This document shows, in pieces, positions 21,706 through 47,998 of a DNA stretch of 64,000 nucleotides (positions are counted from its first letter, which is position 1; every line of letters begins with the position of its first letter). Source of the DNA: Olsenella sp. SW781 (GTDB taxonomy: Bacteria > Actinomycetota > Coriobacteriia > Coriobacteriales > Atopobiaceae); contig NZ_SJOU01000007.1 of NCBI RefSeq assembly GCF_012027725.1, forward strand, positions 1 to 64,000, read 5' to 3'. A program made the translations under genes and the position numbers. The notes beneath the pieces were generated by a model, which worked only from the letters and a program-made list of their open reading frames with translations, did not search any database and was not told the DNA's origin.

Positions 21706-22010
21706 GTCGCGAGCCCCCCGCACGGTAACGGAGCGGGGCGAATGCGACGTTCTTCTCGGCGCTTCTGTCGCGAGGGCCCCGCACGGCCGTCGTGCGGGGC
21801 GTTTGCGACGCTCTTCTCGGCTCTTTCGTTGCGAGTCCCCCGCACGGTGACGGAGCGGGGAGTTTGCGACGCTCTTCTCCCCGCTTTCGTCGCGAGGGCC
21901 CCGCACGGTGACGGAGCGGGGCGTTCGCGACGCTTTTCTCGATGCAAGCGTCGCGAGCCCCCCGCACGAACCCGTGCGGGGCGCTCGCGACGAATCCGGG
22001 CGGACGGGGG
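21706..22010. repeat. Tandem palindromic array A: 5 units of exactly 61 bp
   Basis: Units start at 21706, 21767, 21828, 21889 and 21950 and end at 22010, a strict 61-bp period. Each runs GTCGCGAG, a C-rich inner arm (CCCCGCACGG), a variable loop, GCGGGG, then TGCGACG, so an inner GC stem sits inside an outer GTCGC/GCGAC stem. Loop changes keep the inner stem paired (for example GCACG/CGTGC in unit 2). Spacers of units 1-3 contain CTTCTCG motif copies, and CGAGAAGAAC abuts unit 1. The array fills the gap between the LacI gene and the convergent ECF S gene. No gene is seen in it. Confidence 0.9.
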
Positions 22011-22013
22011 CGG

Positions 22014-22556
22014 CTACTCCTTCGGATCCGGGTAGCGCGGCGGGACGAGCCCGGCGCGCTCGAGCGAGACCACGATCGGCACCACGACGGCGAGTTGCAG
22101 GACGATGCCCGCGATCGCCGTCACGAAGGAGGCCGTGAGCCAGGCCTCGAGCGAGTAGGCGCCCGCCGAGAAGATCAGCGCGCGCAGCACGCCGTTCACC
22201 ACGCGCCCGGCGAGCATGGCGCCCACGAGCGAGATGTAGAGGTCGGCGGTGGTGCTGCCCGTGCGGACCACGCGCGAGAGCAGGCCGGAGACCAGGCCGT
22301 AGACGAGAAGCTCGCAGGTCATGGGCGGCAGCATCGGCGCGGGCGGCATGCCCGTGAGCAGGCCGGACAGGACGGGCGCGAGCACGCCGGTCGCGGCGCC
22401 CGCGACGGGGCCGGCCACGAGGCCGGAGATCATCACGGGAATGTGCATGGGCAGCCAGGTGGCGCCCGCGTTGGGAATGGAGTGGAACGCCATCGGGAGC
22501 ACGATCCCGAGCGCCGCGCACACGGCGGCGACGACGACCTTCTTCACCTGACTCAT
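22014..22556 (-). CDS. ECF transporter substrate-binding (S) component
   Basis: 180 residues, six predicted helices. MHIPVMISGLVAGPVAGAA and LSGLLTGMPPAP are typical of ECF S components. The S protein binds a vitamin or trace nutrient and toggles in the membrane with EcfT. The substrate is not evident; a vitamin, purine or queuosine-like compound are all possible. The ATG at 22556 overlaps the EcfT stop (ATGA), with GAGGT upstream. It is the last of four coupled genes. Confidence 0.85.
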   Translation of the reverse strand: MSQVKKVVVAAVCAALGIVLPMAFHSIPNAGATWLPMHIPVMISGLVAGPVAGAATGVLAPVLSGLLTGMPPAPMLPPMTCELLVYGLVSGLLSRVVRTGSTTADLYISLVGAMLAGRVVNGVLRALIFSAGAYSLEAWLTASFVTAIAGIVLQLAVVVPIVVSLERAGLVPPRYPDPKE

Positions 22557-23284
22557 TGGTACCTCTTCCCCTCTCCCGTCGTGTCGGCGGCGCGCGGGCG
22601 GTCGATCCGGTACCCGCGGGCCTCCATGGCGCAGGAGAGCTCGTCGGCTCGCCTCATCGCCGATACGAAGATGGGTACGAGCAGCCGTACATAGCTGACG
22701 GCTCGTCGCACAATACCATGAGAAGCGACGCCACCGCAACGTATTTCCTGGGCGCGCATGAGCTGCCGGCTCTCCCGCAGGAGCGTCGGCACAAACTGTA
22801 CCGTCACGCCCACGGCGAGCGCGGCCGCCTCCGTGGGCAGACCGAGGCGCCCGAGCGGGCGCAGCAGGCGCCGCACGCCGTCCACGAGCTCCTGGGGGCG
22901 CGTGGTCGCCGTGAGGAGGGTGCCCAGGACCACCACCAGAAGCGTCCGCACCACCACGCGCGCGCCCTGCGCGAGCCCCGCGGGGGTGAGGTGCGCGGGC
23001 CCGAGCGAGACGAGGGGGTCGGCGTCGCTGAAGAAGAGGGCGTTCATGGCGAGGACCATGAGCAGGAACCAGCGCAGGCCCCATGCGGCCCGTCCCGCGG
23101 CGTGCCAGCCCACGCGCGAGACGGCCACGAGGGCGCAGACGCCCGCCGAGACGGCGAGCAGCTCGAGCGGGGTCGTGGCGAGCACGACGAGAAGGGCACA
23201 GGCGAGAAGACCGACGAGCTTGGGACCGGCCCCCATGCGATGGAGCGGCGAGTCCACCCACACGTATCCGGCAAGCGACCTCAT
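22553..23284 (-). CDS. ecfT: ECF transporter transmembrane coupling component EcfT
   Basis: 243 residues. The N-terminus (YVWVDSPLHRMGAGPKLVGLL) is the usual EcfT opening. Several membrane helices follow, and the coupling helices carry AMEARGYR, the conserved ATPase-contact motif (ARGxR type). It links the S component to the EcfA ATPases. Its ATG overlaps the EcfA2 stop and its stop overlaps the S-component start, both by ATGA. Confidence 0.9.
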   Translation of the reverse strand: MRSLAGYVWVDSPLHRMGAGPKLVGLLACALLVVLATTPLELLAVSAGVCALVAVSRVGWHAAGRAAWGLRWFLLMVLAMNALFFSDADPLVSLGPAHLTPAGLAQGARVVVRTLLVVVLGTLLTATTRPQELVDGVRRLLRPLGRLGLPTEAAALAVGVTVQFVPTLLRESRQLMRAQEIRCGGVASHGIVRRAVSYVRLLVPIFVSAMRRADELSCAMEARGYRIDRPRAADTTGEGKRYQ

Positions 23285-24117
23285 GACGCCCTCCCCCGCG
23301 CGATGGCCGACGCGAGCTCCTCGGCCGTGAGGGGCGCGCCCGGCACGTCGATGCCGGCGCGCCTCAGGGCCGAGGCGGCACGAGCGGCGCAGGCGCCCTC
23401 GAGGCCGTGGGCGCGCATGAGCCCCGCGTCTCCGAGAAGGGCGCGCATCGGCCCGTCGAGGGTCACGCGTCCGGCCTCGAGCGCCACCACGCGGTCCGCG
23501 ACCGCGGCAAGCGCGTTGGCGTCGTGGCTGGCCACGACGACCGTGGCCCCGTCCTCGGCCGCGGCGCGCACCGCCGCGAGGCACGCCGAGCGGGCGCGCG
23601 GGTCGAGCCCGGCCGTGGGCTCGTCGAGCAGCAGCAGCGCGGGACGCAGCGCCAGCACGGACGCTATGGCGACGCGCCGCTGCTGGCCGCCCGAGAGCGC
23701 GAACGGGGAGCGGTGGCCCAGCTCGTCCAGGGAGAGCCCCATGAGCGCGAGCGCCGAGCCCGCCCGCTCGCGCGCCTTGGCCGCGCCCATGCCGCGCGCG
23801 AGCAGCCCGAAGGACACCTCGCGCTCCACCGTGGCCTCGAAGAACTGGCGCTCGGGGATCTGGAAGACGAGCCCGACGGACGCGGCGAGCGCTCGGGCGC
23901 CGGGGCCCCGCAGGGCGTCCGCGCCGTCCACGAGCAGCTGCCCGGAGTCGGGCGGCAGCACGCCGGCGAGGACGTCGAGCAGGGTCGACTTGCCCGAGCC
24001 CGTCTGCCCCATGAGCCCGGTGACGCCGACCTCGAGCGAGAGCGTGACGTCGTCGAGAGCACGGTTCCTCTCGCCCGCCGCGCCCTCGTAGGTGACGGAA
24101 ACCCCCTCGAGCCTCAC
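23281..24117 (-). CDS. ecfA2: ECF transporter ATPase EcfA2
   Basis: 278-residue ABC ATPase. Walker A is GQTGSGKST, the Q-loop region FQIPERQFFEATVERE is typical of EcfA2, the signature is LSGGQQRRVAIA, and Walker B is LLLLDEPTAGLD followed by the SHD switch. I use the GTG at 24117, which overlaps the EcfA1 stop; a GTG two codons earlier is equally possible, and neither has a strong ribosome site, consistent with coupling. A C-terminal extension of about 60 residues follows the ATPase core. Confidence 0.9.
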   Translation of the reverse strand: MRLEGVSVTYEGAAGERNRALDDVTLSLEVGVTGLMGQTGSGKSTLLDVLAGVLPPDSGQLLVDGADALRGPGARALAASVGLVFQIPERQFFEATVEREVSFGLLARGMGAAKARERAGSALALMGLSLDELGHRSPFALSGGQQRRVAIASVLALRPALLLLDEPTAGLDPRARSACLAAVRAAAEDGATVVVASHDANALAAVADRVVALEAGRVTLDGPMRALLGDAGLMRAHGLEGACAARAASALRRAGIDVPGAPLTAEELASAIARGRAS

Positions 24118-47443: not shown

Positions 47444-47464
47444 GCGATCCCCCCTCTCAACACG

Positions 47465-47565
47465 CTTCCCTTTCTTTTTCGATTATCACAAGGAGGTATC
47501 TCTTTATGATGCTGTATTCAATTTATGATTTATTTTTCCACGCAGTTTTGTGGCAGCTGCGTGGC
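47465..47565. promoter_or_regulatory. AT-rich leader upstream of the AbiEi/DUF559-like gene
   Basis: About 100 nt rich in A and T in an otherwise roughly 70% G+C window. In the minus-strand sense it precedes the AbiEi/DUF559-like gene; TGATAAT (rc, about 47483-47489) could be a -10 but I see no good -35. In the plus sense it holds AAGGAGG, 9 nt, then ATGATG, opening a frame that soon enters array C. It may be a promoter island or the remnant of an AT-rich insertion. Confidence 0.45.
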
Positions 47566-47632
47566 AGTGTCCGGCAACGTTTCCCTGGCGAGAAGAACGG
47601 GTGGCCGCAGATCGCACGGGATCGCACGCCTT

Positions 47633-47998
47633 GTCGAGGATTCCCCGCACGGCGGGTGTGCGGGGGCCTGGCGACATTCCTGGGCGACAGGGTGTCGCGA
47701 ATCCCCCGCTCAGTCCCCATGCGGGGCCGAGGCGACACTTCCCACCCCGGGTTCGTCGCCAAACCCCCGCATCTCGGCTGTGCGGGGCCGAGGCGACATC
47801 CCAGACCGGCGGGGCGTCGCAAAATCCCCGCACGACGACTCCGCGGGGCCGAGGCGACATCCCAGACCGGTGGGGCGTCGCGAATCCCCCGCATCCCGGC
47901 CGTGCGGGGGTTTGACGACGCTTCGTGCGGGGAAAACGTCGCCTCGGCCCCGCTTGGCAGGCGTGCGGGGCCGAGGCGACGTTCTGAGGCGACGTTCT
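47633..47998. repeat. Tandem palindromic array C: 6 units of exactly 61 bp
   Basis: Units start at 47633, 47694, 47755, 47816, 47877 and 47938, the same 61-bp period and the same GTCGCGAATCCCCCGC / GCGGGGCCGAGGCGAC halves as array B. The last unit has the long perfect stem GTCGCCTCGGCCCCGC paired with GCGGGGCCGAGGCGAC. CGAGAAGAACGGG at 47590 again lies about 45 nt before unit 1, and another CGAGAAGAAC (48044) follows the array. With the AT-rich leader it accounts for the 596-base gap between the AbiEi/DUF559-like and esterase genes. Confidence 0.93.

Follow-up and report, generated by a model that had tools for sequence, protein, structure and literature searches.

The window analysed here, a stretch of 64,000 nt from Olsenella sp. 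SW781, contains three intergenic tandem arrays of a palindromic unit, and the question they raise is what kind of repeat keeps its length nearly constant when its sequence changes fast. The combination points to a length-measuring function or a copying process. Most likely the arrays represent a new family akin to REPs and BIMEs but locked in its frame, the units of which are putative symmetric DNA-binding sites or hairpin sites at gene ends; an origin from a RAYT transposase, CRISPR and ordinary terminators are not supported. Whether REP-like repeats are junk, terminators or architectural sites is a long-standing question for which the arrays offer a natural test, as sequence and geometry can be separated here (arms vary and units are replaced at a conserved length) and relatives that have arrays can be set beside relatives that lack them.

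The arrays in the window

The arrays and the lone unit (Table 1) lie where the first-pass annotation had located them, but the array ends it gave need correcting: without the final spacer they fall at 21991, 46354 and 47980. A base-by-base check gave steps of 61 bp throughout all three arrays, and Tandem Repeats Finder reported period 61 at each, along with periods of 122 and 183 and one 27-bp row. The fifth unit of array 1 is 42 bp long, the others of that array being 43 bp, and was missed by the 43-bp scorer. Within array 2 the units at 46068 and 46251 are exactly the same, a block copy over 183 bp, and array 3 closes with an almost perfect palindrome (the unit at 47938). Seeded on a single inner arm, a search for sites that keep 18 or more of 22 conserved positions found 18 in the window and 1 in 20 composition shuffles of it; Rfam gave no match at gathering score within the window.

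Table 1. Coordinates of repeat units and dispersed 12-mers in the window
Feature	Coordinates	Strand	Description
GCCGAGAAGAAC	21694..21705	+	Variant of the genus-wide dispersed 12-mer GGCGAGAAGAAC; abuts first unit of array 1
Array 1	21706..21991	.	Five units, starts 21706, 21767, 21828, 21889, 21950; 18-bp spacers; step 61
Lone unit	41785..41827	.	Between dnaE and desulfoferrodoxin gene
GGCGAGAAGAAC dispersed motif	45901..45912	+	Adjoins array 2
Truncated unit	45922..45927	.	Right edge GGCGAC; precedes array 2, in frame with it
Array 2	45946..46354	.	Seven units, starts 45946, 46007, 46068, 46129, 46190, 46251, 46312; step 61
GGCGAGAAGAAC dispersed motif	47587..47598	+	Adjoins array 3
Array 3	47633..47980	.	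Six units, starts 47633, 47694, 47755, 47816, 47877, 47938; step 61

Anatomy and folding of the unit

Each unit consists of a 43-bp palindrome, YGTCGC-N5-CCCCGC-N11-GCGGGG-N5-GCGACR, and an 18-bp spacer. Among 181 units the first base is C in 68% and T in 30%, followed by G, T and C in 99, 98 and 99%. The recurring frame is GTCG, about five variable bases, an arm of 6-7 bp whose sequence depends on the lineage, a gap of 11-12 bp and the same elements mirrored; between the CGAC and GTCG ends sits a core of 18 bp, RSTTT-N8-AAASY. The bases before the palindrome are A-rich and those after it T-rich, with about three T past the stem. As the units are near-symmetric their orientation is undefined, and in 76 units there was no strand bias in the arms (33 G-U against 29 A-C) nor at the edges (128 A before against 144 T after), the lack of which fits use as DNA or in both directions.

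In the clade of SW781, pairing of arm bases exceeds chance across the 11-bp gap (z +2.7) and falls short of it across the 18-bp core (z -3.4). The hairpin thus has its centre in the gap, whereas the proposed protein dyad has its centre in the core, a discrepancy that speaks against the explanation favoured below. Pooled covariation in the other arm types gave z values of 5.7 and 5.3 that are inflated by the mixing of types, the values within types being 0.7-2.9. When four units were folded as DNA two beat their shuffles (z -5.2 and -7.2), two from array 2 showed no clear gain (z -1.7 and -0.7), and a core-centred 50-mer folded no better than shuffles (z +1.0). The mean predicted RNA energy of 85 units of 53 nt is -30 kcal/mol, a figure that stands without a shuffle control.

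Distribution across the genome, genus and family

Such units are present at no fewer than 24 places in the SW781 genome. Searched genome-wide, as the annotation had suggested, the exact pattern occurs at 54 sites and its reversed control at none; a 16-mer with up to 2 mismatches gave 75 sites against 7 for a chance control. The covariance-model matches listed (at least 104 scored per genome, or at least 150) include both strands. Arrays at shared loci are found in the sister genomes of Thermophilibacter provencensis and "Olsenella uli" An733, and at least 11 further Thermophilibacter genomes have units with different outer arms in a common frame.

The core pattern CGACNNTT-N10-AANNGTCG is present in 17 of 31 genus genomes, in 1-35 copies, and in 14 of 109 other genomes of the family, in 1-2 copies each. 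The exact core is absent from the other 14 genus genomes, yet variants of the unit occur in three of them, G002, G010 and G029, their 18-bp core being read by eye. Seven of the 12 sites inspected outside the genus share TAACGAC/GTCGTTA arms, as lone units, and the core is therefore not strictly confined to the genus. Arm types were placed on the tree with one label per genome, G012 and G020 each holding two.

A viral or plasmid origin found no support: viral contigs contained no match to the exact pattern, and the 8 single matches to a stricter core pattern, each with between 0 and 7 of its 12 arm bases paired and with no further core at its locus, were read as chance. The whole of array 2 had no blastn match in either the plasmid or the phage collection. 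A match in Streptomyces (L058), a lone palindrome, was likewise put down to chance and excluded from the unit sets.

A fixed step and a changing sequence

The annotation had described a unit of exactly 61 bp; this is true of the period and not of the sequence, since adjacent units differ on average at 20.3 of 61 positions (three species). Its observation of an identical period despite diverged sequence extends across the family. Over three species, together with a small number of T. gallinarum units, 116 of 126 neighbour distances are exactly 61 bp. The arbitrary periods that the annotation had named as a refutation were thus not what other copies showed. Across these 126 intervals there are 2360 mismatches and 9 intervals with an indel, or ~262 mismatches per indel-bearing interval, the mismatches being partly non-independent owing to the replacement of whole units; intergenic DNA of the same species, used as the indel control in preference to alignments of 150-bp flanks with their edge gaps, has 1864 mismatches and 187 gap openings, or ~10 per indel. 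Indels per mismatch are thus ~26 times rarer in the arrays than in local intergenic DNA.

In genomes with other outer arms, among the core matches listed, 17 of the 19 spacings below 200 bp are 61 or 62 bp, the remaining two being 121 and 122. A larger count over other-arm loci of 12 genomes (50 of 55 spacings at 61-62, with 30 at 61 and 20 at 62) is biased, as most of these loci were picked where neighbouring cores showed, which does not apply to the 19. The outer arm varies by lineage with the 61-62 bp step retained. Given a family-wide period and the rarity of indels, the earlier proposal of selection on length or a shared, length-keeping amplification is a fair reading, and one that is partly supported overall.

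The content of the arrays is far less stable. Detected units per species at shared loci number 6/4/2, 5/3/4, 7/3 and 8/2, at partner loci taken from the exact-pattern scan, where loci that had lost their arrays could not appear. Among the best identities of 131 units in 34 array pairs, 113 fall at 29-38 of 43 positions and 11 at 40-43, and the mean of 33.9 compares with 31.4 (sd 2.5) for random pairs. Units are gained, lost and replaced as wholes and in register, and block copies of 122 and 183 bp occur within arrays. Block linkage is strongest between adjacent spacers (6.4-fold) and between the two variable arms (4.3-fold), a pattern that indicates no single exchange breakpoint between units. 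The free variation between strains that was named as the mark of neutral tandem repeats is found in part: at a given locus, species differ freely in the number and identity of units, but not in the period.

Position relative to genes

By the ORF list and Pfam, array 1 is convergent, lying between the stop of a LacI-type gene (21674, +) and an ECF-transporter-type gene (22014-23261, -). The lone unit is flanked by dnaE (41925-45755, -) and the desulfoferrodoxin gene (41306-41752, -). Array 2 lies 33 bp past the stop of the gene at 46388-47443 (-), with dnaE 190 bp away (the array coming before dnaE), and array 3 is 59 bp past the stop of an esterase-like gene (48040-49119, -) and 189 bp before the gene at 46388-47443.

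For the position counts, gene calls came from a simple codon-position rule, which is wrong at some places; by it array 1 was co-directional, and this array was left out of the stricter set. That set required both neighbours within 800 bp and comprises 43 arrays (18 from SW781 and 25 others, the same loci being counted in up to three species), of which 26 are co-directional, 13 convergent and 4 divergent; the wider set of 62 holds 30, 22 and 6, with 4 unknown. All but one of the 26 co-directional arrays (25/26) are closer to the upstream stop, the median distances on the two sides being 31 and 169 bp, and several convergent arrays occupy the whole gap between two stops.

Comparison with known repeats

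The arrays resemble the BIMEs and REP palindromes of Enterobacteria, Pseudomonas and Stenotrophomonas in being regularly spaced palindromes in intergenic arrays. The sections of PMC2817692 concerned describe these as over 100 copies of imperfect intergenic palindromes in regularly spaced arrays that keep their palindromy and vary between strains, and report that BIMEs bind gyrase and IHF and that REPs assist Rho-dependent termination. In BIMEs, by the same sections, REPs alternate and the inter-REP length varies, whereas the units here are near-symmetric, keep to a single step of 61-62 bp that loci and species have in common, and belong to an actinobacterial genus (Coriobacteriia). Unlike REPs of the GTAG superfamily, units of the SW781 clade start with YGTCGC and have no GTAG tag at the palindrome end; GTAGG was confined to other genomes, where it forms one type of outer arm.

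There is also a likeness to the CGTC-tagged REPs of Di Nocera et al. 2013 (PMC3733652), which in the parts of that paper concerned share CGTC/TGTC ends, a position 3' of genes and the failure to find a dedicated transposase. Those REPs rarely cluster and combine stems of 8-9 bp and loops of 4-5 bp with a tag that is unpaired and a CCA-like tail, whereas here the tag is paired, the arms are 5+N5+6 bp, the gap measures 11-12 bp and units normally come in arrays; the main text of the paper gave no match for Actinobacteria, Olsenella or Eggerthella. The Porphyromonas gingivalis MITE minisatellite (PMC4596501) is likewise reported to have tandem repeats in palindromic mobile-like DNA, a likeness of description only. 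The annotation's remark that no named class fits stands to the extent that the defining REP/BIME features tested are absent, and needs softening in that REPs and BIMEs, as portrayed in the sections of PMC2817692 and PMC3733652 concerned, are close in size, place and dynamics; the literature search covered the leading matches and may have missed a paper on the genus.

Alternative explanations

Since each unit is a strong hairpin with A-rich bases on one side and T-rich bases on the other, the units might be two-way transcription terminators or protectors of mRNA 3' ends, multiplied for strength. The placement of arrays ~30 bp past stops, the filling of stop-to-stop space by several convergent arrays and the predicted RNA energy would all suit this. 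It would nevertheless seem rather unlikely, as only ~3 T follow the stem, there is no sense-strand excess of G-U, the T side is not clearly stronger, and terminators have no need of an exact 61-bp step. No intrinsic terminator, defined as a G+C-rich hairpin with 5 or more T among the next 8 bases, lies between 45700 and 48200, an interval that spans arrays 2 and 3 and for which shuffles average 1.2; two units outside that interval qualify through the TTCTTCTC that follows them. Furthermore, 6 of 29 ends that bear an array have a canonical U-tract terminator (in two cases within an array unit), as do 15 of 106 other ends, in searches of up to 600 nt at array ends and 250 at other ends, and so arrays do not clearly substitute for them.

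Alternatively an old 61-bp dimer may have spread as a neutral or selfish repeat and been kept by in-register recombination alone, the frame being a by-product because only equal-length units recombine. Free variation in copy number and unit content at shared loci and the 122- and 183-bp block copies are what this would produce, and junk is safe at the 3' ends of genes. We regard it as fairly improbable: indels are too rare relative to those of neighbouring intergenic DNA, lineages with different arms share one frame, and the core dyad is conserved in other arm types. Homologous recombination, moreover, works poorly between units with a third of their bases different.

It is very improbable that the units are REPs or REPINs mobilised by a RAYT, an IS200/IS605-like Y1 transposase that moves hairpins. 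The palindromes do have YGTC ends and are intergenic and lineage-specific, and 28 of 31 genus genomes have Y1_Tnp genes, but none of the 6 Y1_Tnp loci of SW781 has a unit within ~1.5 kb, whilst one of them (L093) is flanked by inverted copies of another palindrome and serves as a positive control. The inter-REP segments of Stenotrophomonas BIMEs vary substantially in length, according to the section on them in PMC2817692, and the frame here is fixed. Y1 counts do not track arrays, and G019, at 99% completeness, has 21 core copies and no Y1_Tnp match. Type I-E CRISPR also has a 61-bp period and a CCCCGC/GCGGGG hairpin, and another family genome (G109) has a period-61 array with the repeat GGATCATCCCCGCGTATGCGGGGAGCAC that we take to be one, but a degenerate CRISPR has next to no chance of explaining the arrays, as near-identical repeats with unrelated spacers are not seen in them, the arms vary by lineage, the 18-bp spacers have common RSTTT/AAASY ends, units lie at many places, mostly gene ends, the seven window proteins scanned include no cas product, and array 2 lacks any phage or plasmid match.

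A frame possibly read by a protein

The explanation we favour, tentatively and at somewhat under an even chance, is a REP/BIME-like family of intergenic palindromes that forms arrays in one genus, is held just 3' of genes and has its frame read by a putative symmetric protein. In-register recombination would expand and shrink the arrays, and the frame would be held through the reading of each unit as double-stranded DNA or as an extruded DNA hairpin. The reader may be a symmetric (dimeric) protein on CGAC-RSTTT half-sites 8 bp apart, and the arrays could mark the ends of transcription units and, by analogy with BIMEs, act as a boundary, a supercoiling element or a gyrase-type site. No binding protein, nuclease or transposase was tied to the repeat in this analysis. 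Copy number varies freely and not every unit is a good hairpin, both of which count against this explanation, as do the absence of the exact core from 14 of the 31 genus genomes, its presence outside the genus and the different centres of hairpin and proposed dyad. A further point against the favoured explanation is that 61 bp is no whole number of turns at 10.5 bp.

A more elaborate and distinctly doubtful proposal is that a putative genus-specific protein system builds or reads the arrays and gauges the length of the unit. In this scheme a dimer bound to CGAC-RSTTT-N8-AAASY-GTCG cores would set the 61-62 bp step and the partner specific for the outer arm would have diverged from lineage to lineage, so that gene ends throughout the genome would carry ordered DNA marks. 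Protein reading of the frame, if real, would give Actinomycetota, in this genus, a new system for organising DNA or building arrays.

It was tempting, from a first sample, to see helical turns behind every tandem repeat of the genus (30, 41 and 61 bp), but such a rule was supported neither by a larger sample (34 arrays in 1.2 Mb, including 0.4 Mb sampled earlier) nor by a control set (0.4 Mb with 14 arrays, of which five rows are one CRISPR-like locus). Finally, the inverse of the 12-mer GCCGAGAAGAAC follows the first unit of array 1.

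Distribution of the unit

The three tandem arrays and the lone unit claimed by the first-pass annotation are all present in the window, as a base-level check confirmed (see the table). The unit has the consensus YGTCGC-N5-CCCCGC-N11-GCGGGG-N5-GCGACR, a palindrome of 43 bp, bordered by Y and R, that precedes an 18-bp spacer, with base frequencies taken from 181 distinct units of SW781 and named loci. A genome-wide search finds the exact pattern at 54 sites in the SW781 genome (2.43 Mb, 38 contigs) against none for the reversed pattern, and exact-pattern clusters together with a model search of both strands place units in at least 24 places, the lone unit counted.

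Features of the window
Feature	Position	Remarks
Array 1	21706-21991	5 units
Array 2	45946-46354	7 units; starts 33 bp past a stop, next gene ~190 bp on
Array 3	47633-47980	6 units; starts 59 bp past a stop, next gene ~190 bp on
Lone unit	41785-41827	97 bp after dnaE stop, 32 bp before desulfoferrodoxin gene
Palindrome GGGGACAGTCACTTTTGCACG...CGTGCAAAAGTGACTGTCCCC	~41838-41905	adjoins lone unit
12-mer GGCGAGAAGAAC	45901-45912	
12-mer GGCGAGAAGAAC	47587-47598	
Variant of the 12-mer	21694-21705	
Gene between arrays 2 and 3	46388-47443	351 aa; no Pfam/NCBIfam match at E 0.001

The exact pattern matched 36 stretches in a scan of 84,980 named genomes, a set which may not include SW781. Of these, 35 belong to 'Olsenella uli' An733, Thermophilibacter provencensis and T. 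gallinarum, and the remaining one is a lone palindrome in Streptomyces. As these three relatives have one genus label in common, we assign SW781 to Thermophilibacter; T. provencensis is placed by NCBI taxonomy in the Atopobiaceae, Coriobacteriia. Among 60 genomes compared (numbered G), SW781 included, four contain the exact pattern and 12 are matched by a covariance model of the unit, strongly in SW781 and An733 (at least 104 rows each) and T. provencensis (66), with a few true units in T. gallinarum (G025, four rows) and G004 (two) and one or two rows, at E 0.0002-0.01, in each of seven others.

A constant step between diverged units

Adjacent units of the GCGGGG type differ at 20.3 of 61 positions (2360 mismatches in total), and of 126 neighbour intervals 116 are 61 bp, one is 122 and nine carry an indel (60, 62, 62, 67, 121 three times and 123 twice). 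Intergenic DNA outside the arrays, compared by BLAST between SW781 and two sister genomes, gave 1864 mismatches and 187 gap openings. There are therefore 262 mismatches per indel in arrays against 10 in this control; unit detection was ungapped, which hides indels within a unit, but a unit lost in this way leaves an interval of 121-123 bp and is counted. This deficit of indels weakens the idea that the arrays are products of neutral amplification, which we regard as rather improbable.

The same frame with other arms

Upstream of dnaE, genus-mates have different palindromic arrays of like layout, with CGAC, an 18-bp core RSTTT-N8-AAASY and GTCG inside other outer arms. Of 31 genus genomes, 17 contain the core pattern CGACNNTT-N10-AANNGTCG, with 1-35 copies each; among 109 other family genomes 14 have one or two copies, and the reversed control is found in 13 of those 109. 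Among the matches listed from outside the SW781 clade, 19 core spacings fall below 200 bp, of which 17 measure 61 or 62 bp and the other two 121 and 122. Arms of type GGTGCGG occur in G006, G009 and G018, GTAGG in G008, G012, G019, G020 and G021, and GGGGAC or close variants in G012, G013, G020, G028 and G030. Spacings of these other-arm units are 61 (30), 62 (20), 59 (2) and 63, 72 and 103 bp (one each), so that 50 of 55 are 61-62 bp, a figure biased because most loci sampled were picked where such cores neighbour one another. Tandem Repeats Finder units in G010 (61), G029 (62) and G002 (59) have, judged by eye, the 18-bp core with other inner stems.

On a two-gene tree the three GCGGGG-rich genomes form a single clade (support 1.0), yet G004 and G025, with a few such units, lie elsewhere; the GGGGAC genomes G012, G013, G028 and G030 also form a clade (1.0), but G020 has a close variant, and GTAGG and GGTGCGG are scattered. 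Given this distribution and the spacings of 61-62 bp, arms differ between lineages whilst the step is kept, and the frame is older than the unit sequence. Outside the genus, TAACGAC/GTCGTTA arms are common to seven of 12 sites in 11 loci inspected (G088, G097, G115, G122, G124 twice, G128), and a related lone element may extend beyond the genus. Lone TAACGAC-18-GTCGTTA palindromes at L256, L257, L260, L263, L264 and L265, in six genomes of three other family genera, are possibly distant relatives of the genus arrays.

The genus has other intergenic tandem arrays of different units, with periods of ~41-42 and 30-31 bp (L134, L266, L284, L283, L319, L325). A CRISPR-like array in another family genome (L332, 10093-12809) also has period 61, a coincidence which calls for caution.

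Position and fold

Of 43 arrays with both neighbouring genes called within 800 bp, a count which one locus may enter up to three times (three species), 26 lie between co-directional, 13 between convergent and four between divergent genes. In the co-directional class 25 of 26 are nearer the upstream stop (median distances 31 and 169 bp), the sole exception being the lone unit.

In the SW781 clade, pairing of the variable arm bases exceeds that of shuffles inside the 43-mer (perfect in 15 of 92, z +2.7) and falls short of it across the 18-bp core (0 of 92, z -3.4), and the 11-bp gap pairs below chance; the hairpin is therefore the 43-mer with an open gap. Folded as DNA, two of four units clearly beat shuffles and two, from array 2, do not. 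The sense strand has no preference for G-U over A-C and none clearly for T over A flanks, so nothing in this weak test of 76 units ties the structure to RNA. That the units are transcription terminators we regard as rather improbable, to the same degree as neutral amplification, as the U-tract is missing at arrays 2 and 3 and termination has no need of so exact a step.

Turnover between species

All 22 SW781 array places compared align by their flanks with at least one named array-bearing locus, by a route that finds only array-bearing partners. Across 34 array pairs alignable flanks are 76-100% identical and unit numbers unequal (6/4/2, 5/3/4, 7/3, 8/2). Best unit identities (n=131) are 29-38 of 43 in 113 cases and 40-43 in 11, averaging 33.9, where randomly matched arrays from different species give 31.4 (sd 2.5); some orthologous units are retained and most are close to background. 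Two or three units at a time have also been copied as blocks, and whole units are gained, lost and replaced, nearly always in register.

A two-unit T. gallinarum array (L045, L061) adjoins a stretch 97% identical to SW781 over 1.3 kb (other side 91%) despite the distance of the two genomes on the tree, and stretch and array were possibly acquired by horizontal transfer. The dnaE of G009 (L123, L168) is 98% identical to that of SW781 over its first 200 residues and the second tree gene only 85%, a hint that this dnaE was replaced.

Favoured explanation and known repeats

We give most weight to each unit being a symmetric site at the DNA level, one that would be read at gene ends in a constant frame and work in a BIME-like manner. 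The data establish the frame, the position and the turnover; the protein presumed to read the site, and its job, we infer. Mobilisation by RAYTs, the Y1 transposases tied to REP palindromes, is unlikely, since units stand at none of the six Y1 loci of SW781, a scan able to detect repeat-flanked transposases because one locus (L093) has inverted copies of another palindrome's core on both flanks, one with a mismatch. That palindrome, GGGGACAGTCACTTTTGCACG...CGTGCAAAAGTGACTGTCCCC, and the L093 gene are likely a RAYT-REP pair.

The nearest known kinds are BIME/REP repeats (PMC2817692) and CGTC-tagged REPs (PMC3733652), and the family resembles them in being made of intergenic, regularly spaced palindromes at gene ends. 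The units end in CGTC/TGTC, as the tagged REPs are described to do (PMC3733652). The sizes of their stems and loops set them apart from the known kinds, as do a tag that is paired and the want of a transposase link at the Y1 loci of SW781 (PMC2817692, PMC3733652). We regard the family as related in kind to REP/BIME but no member; no description of it appears among the literature matches listed.

A dispersed 12-mer

Exact copies of GGCGAGAAGAAC number 11-506 per genome in all 31 genus genomes (298 in SW781) and 0-7 in each of 29 others; the reversed control gives 0-5. The word is enriched between genes, on both strands and at times in tandem at ~13 bp; in 355 kb of SW781, of which genes make up ~78%, its 9-base core has 64 copies in intergenic DNA and 63 within called genes. 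The 12-mer may serve as a binding site or an uptake-like word, or may have seeded the arrays, and it is worth separate study. Of 107 internal array cores, 14 contain its last 11 bases with at most one mismatch (0.08 in shuffles), as do 12 of 137 outer flanks.
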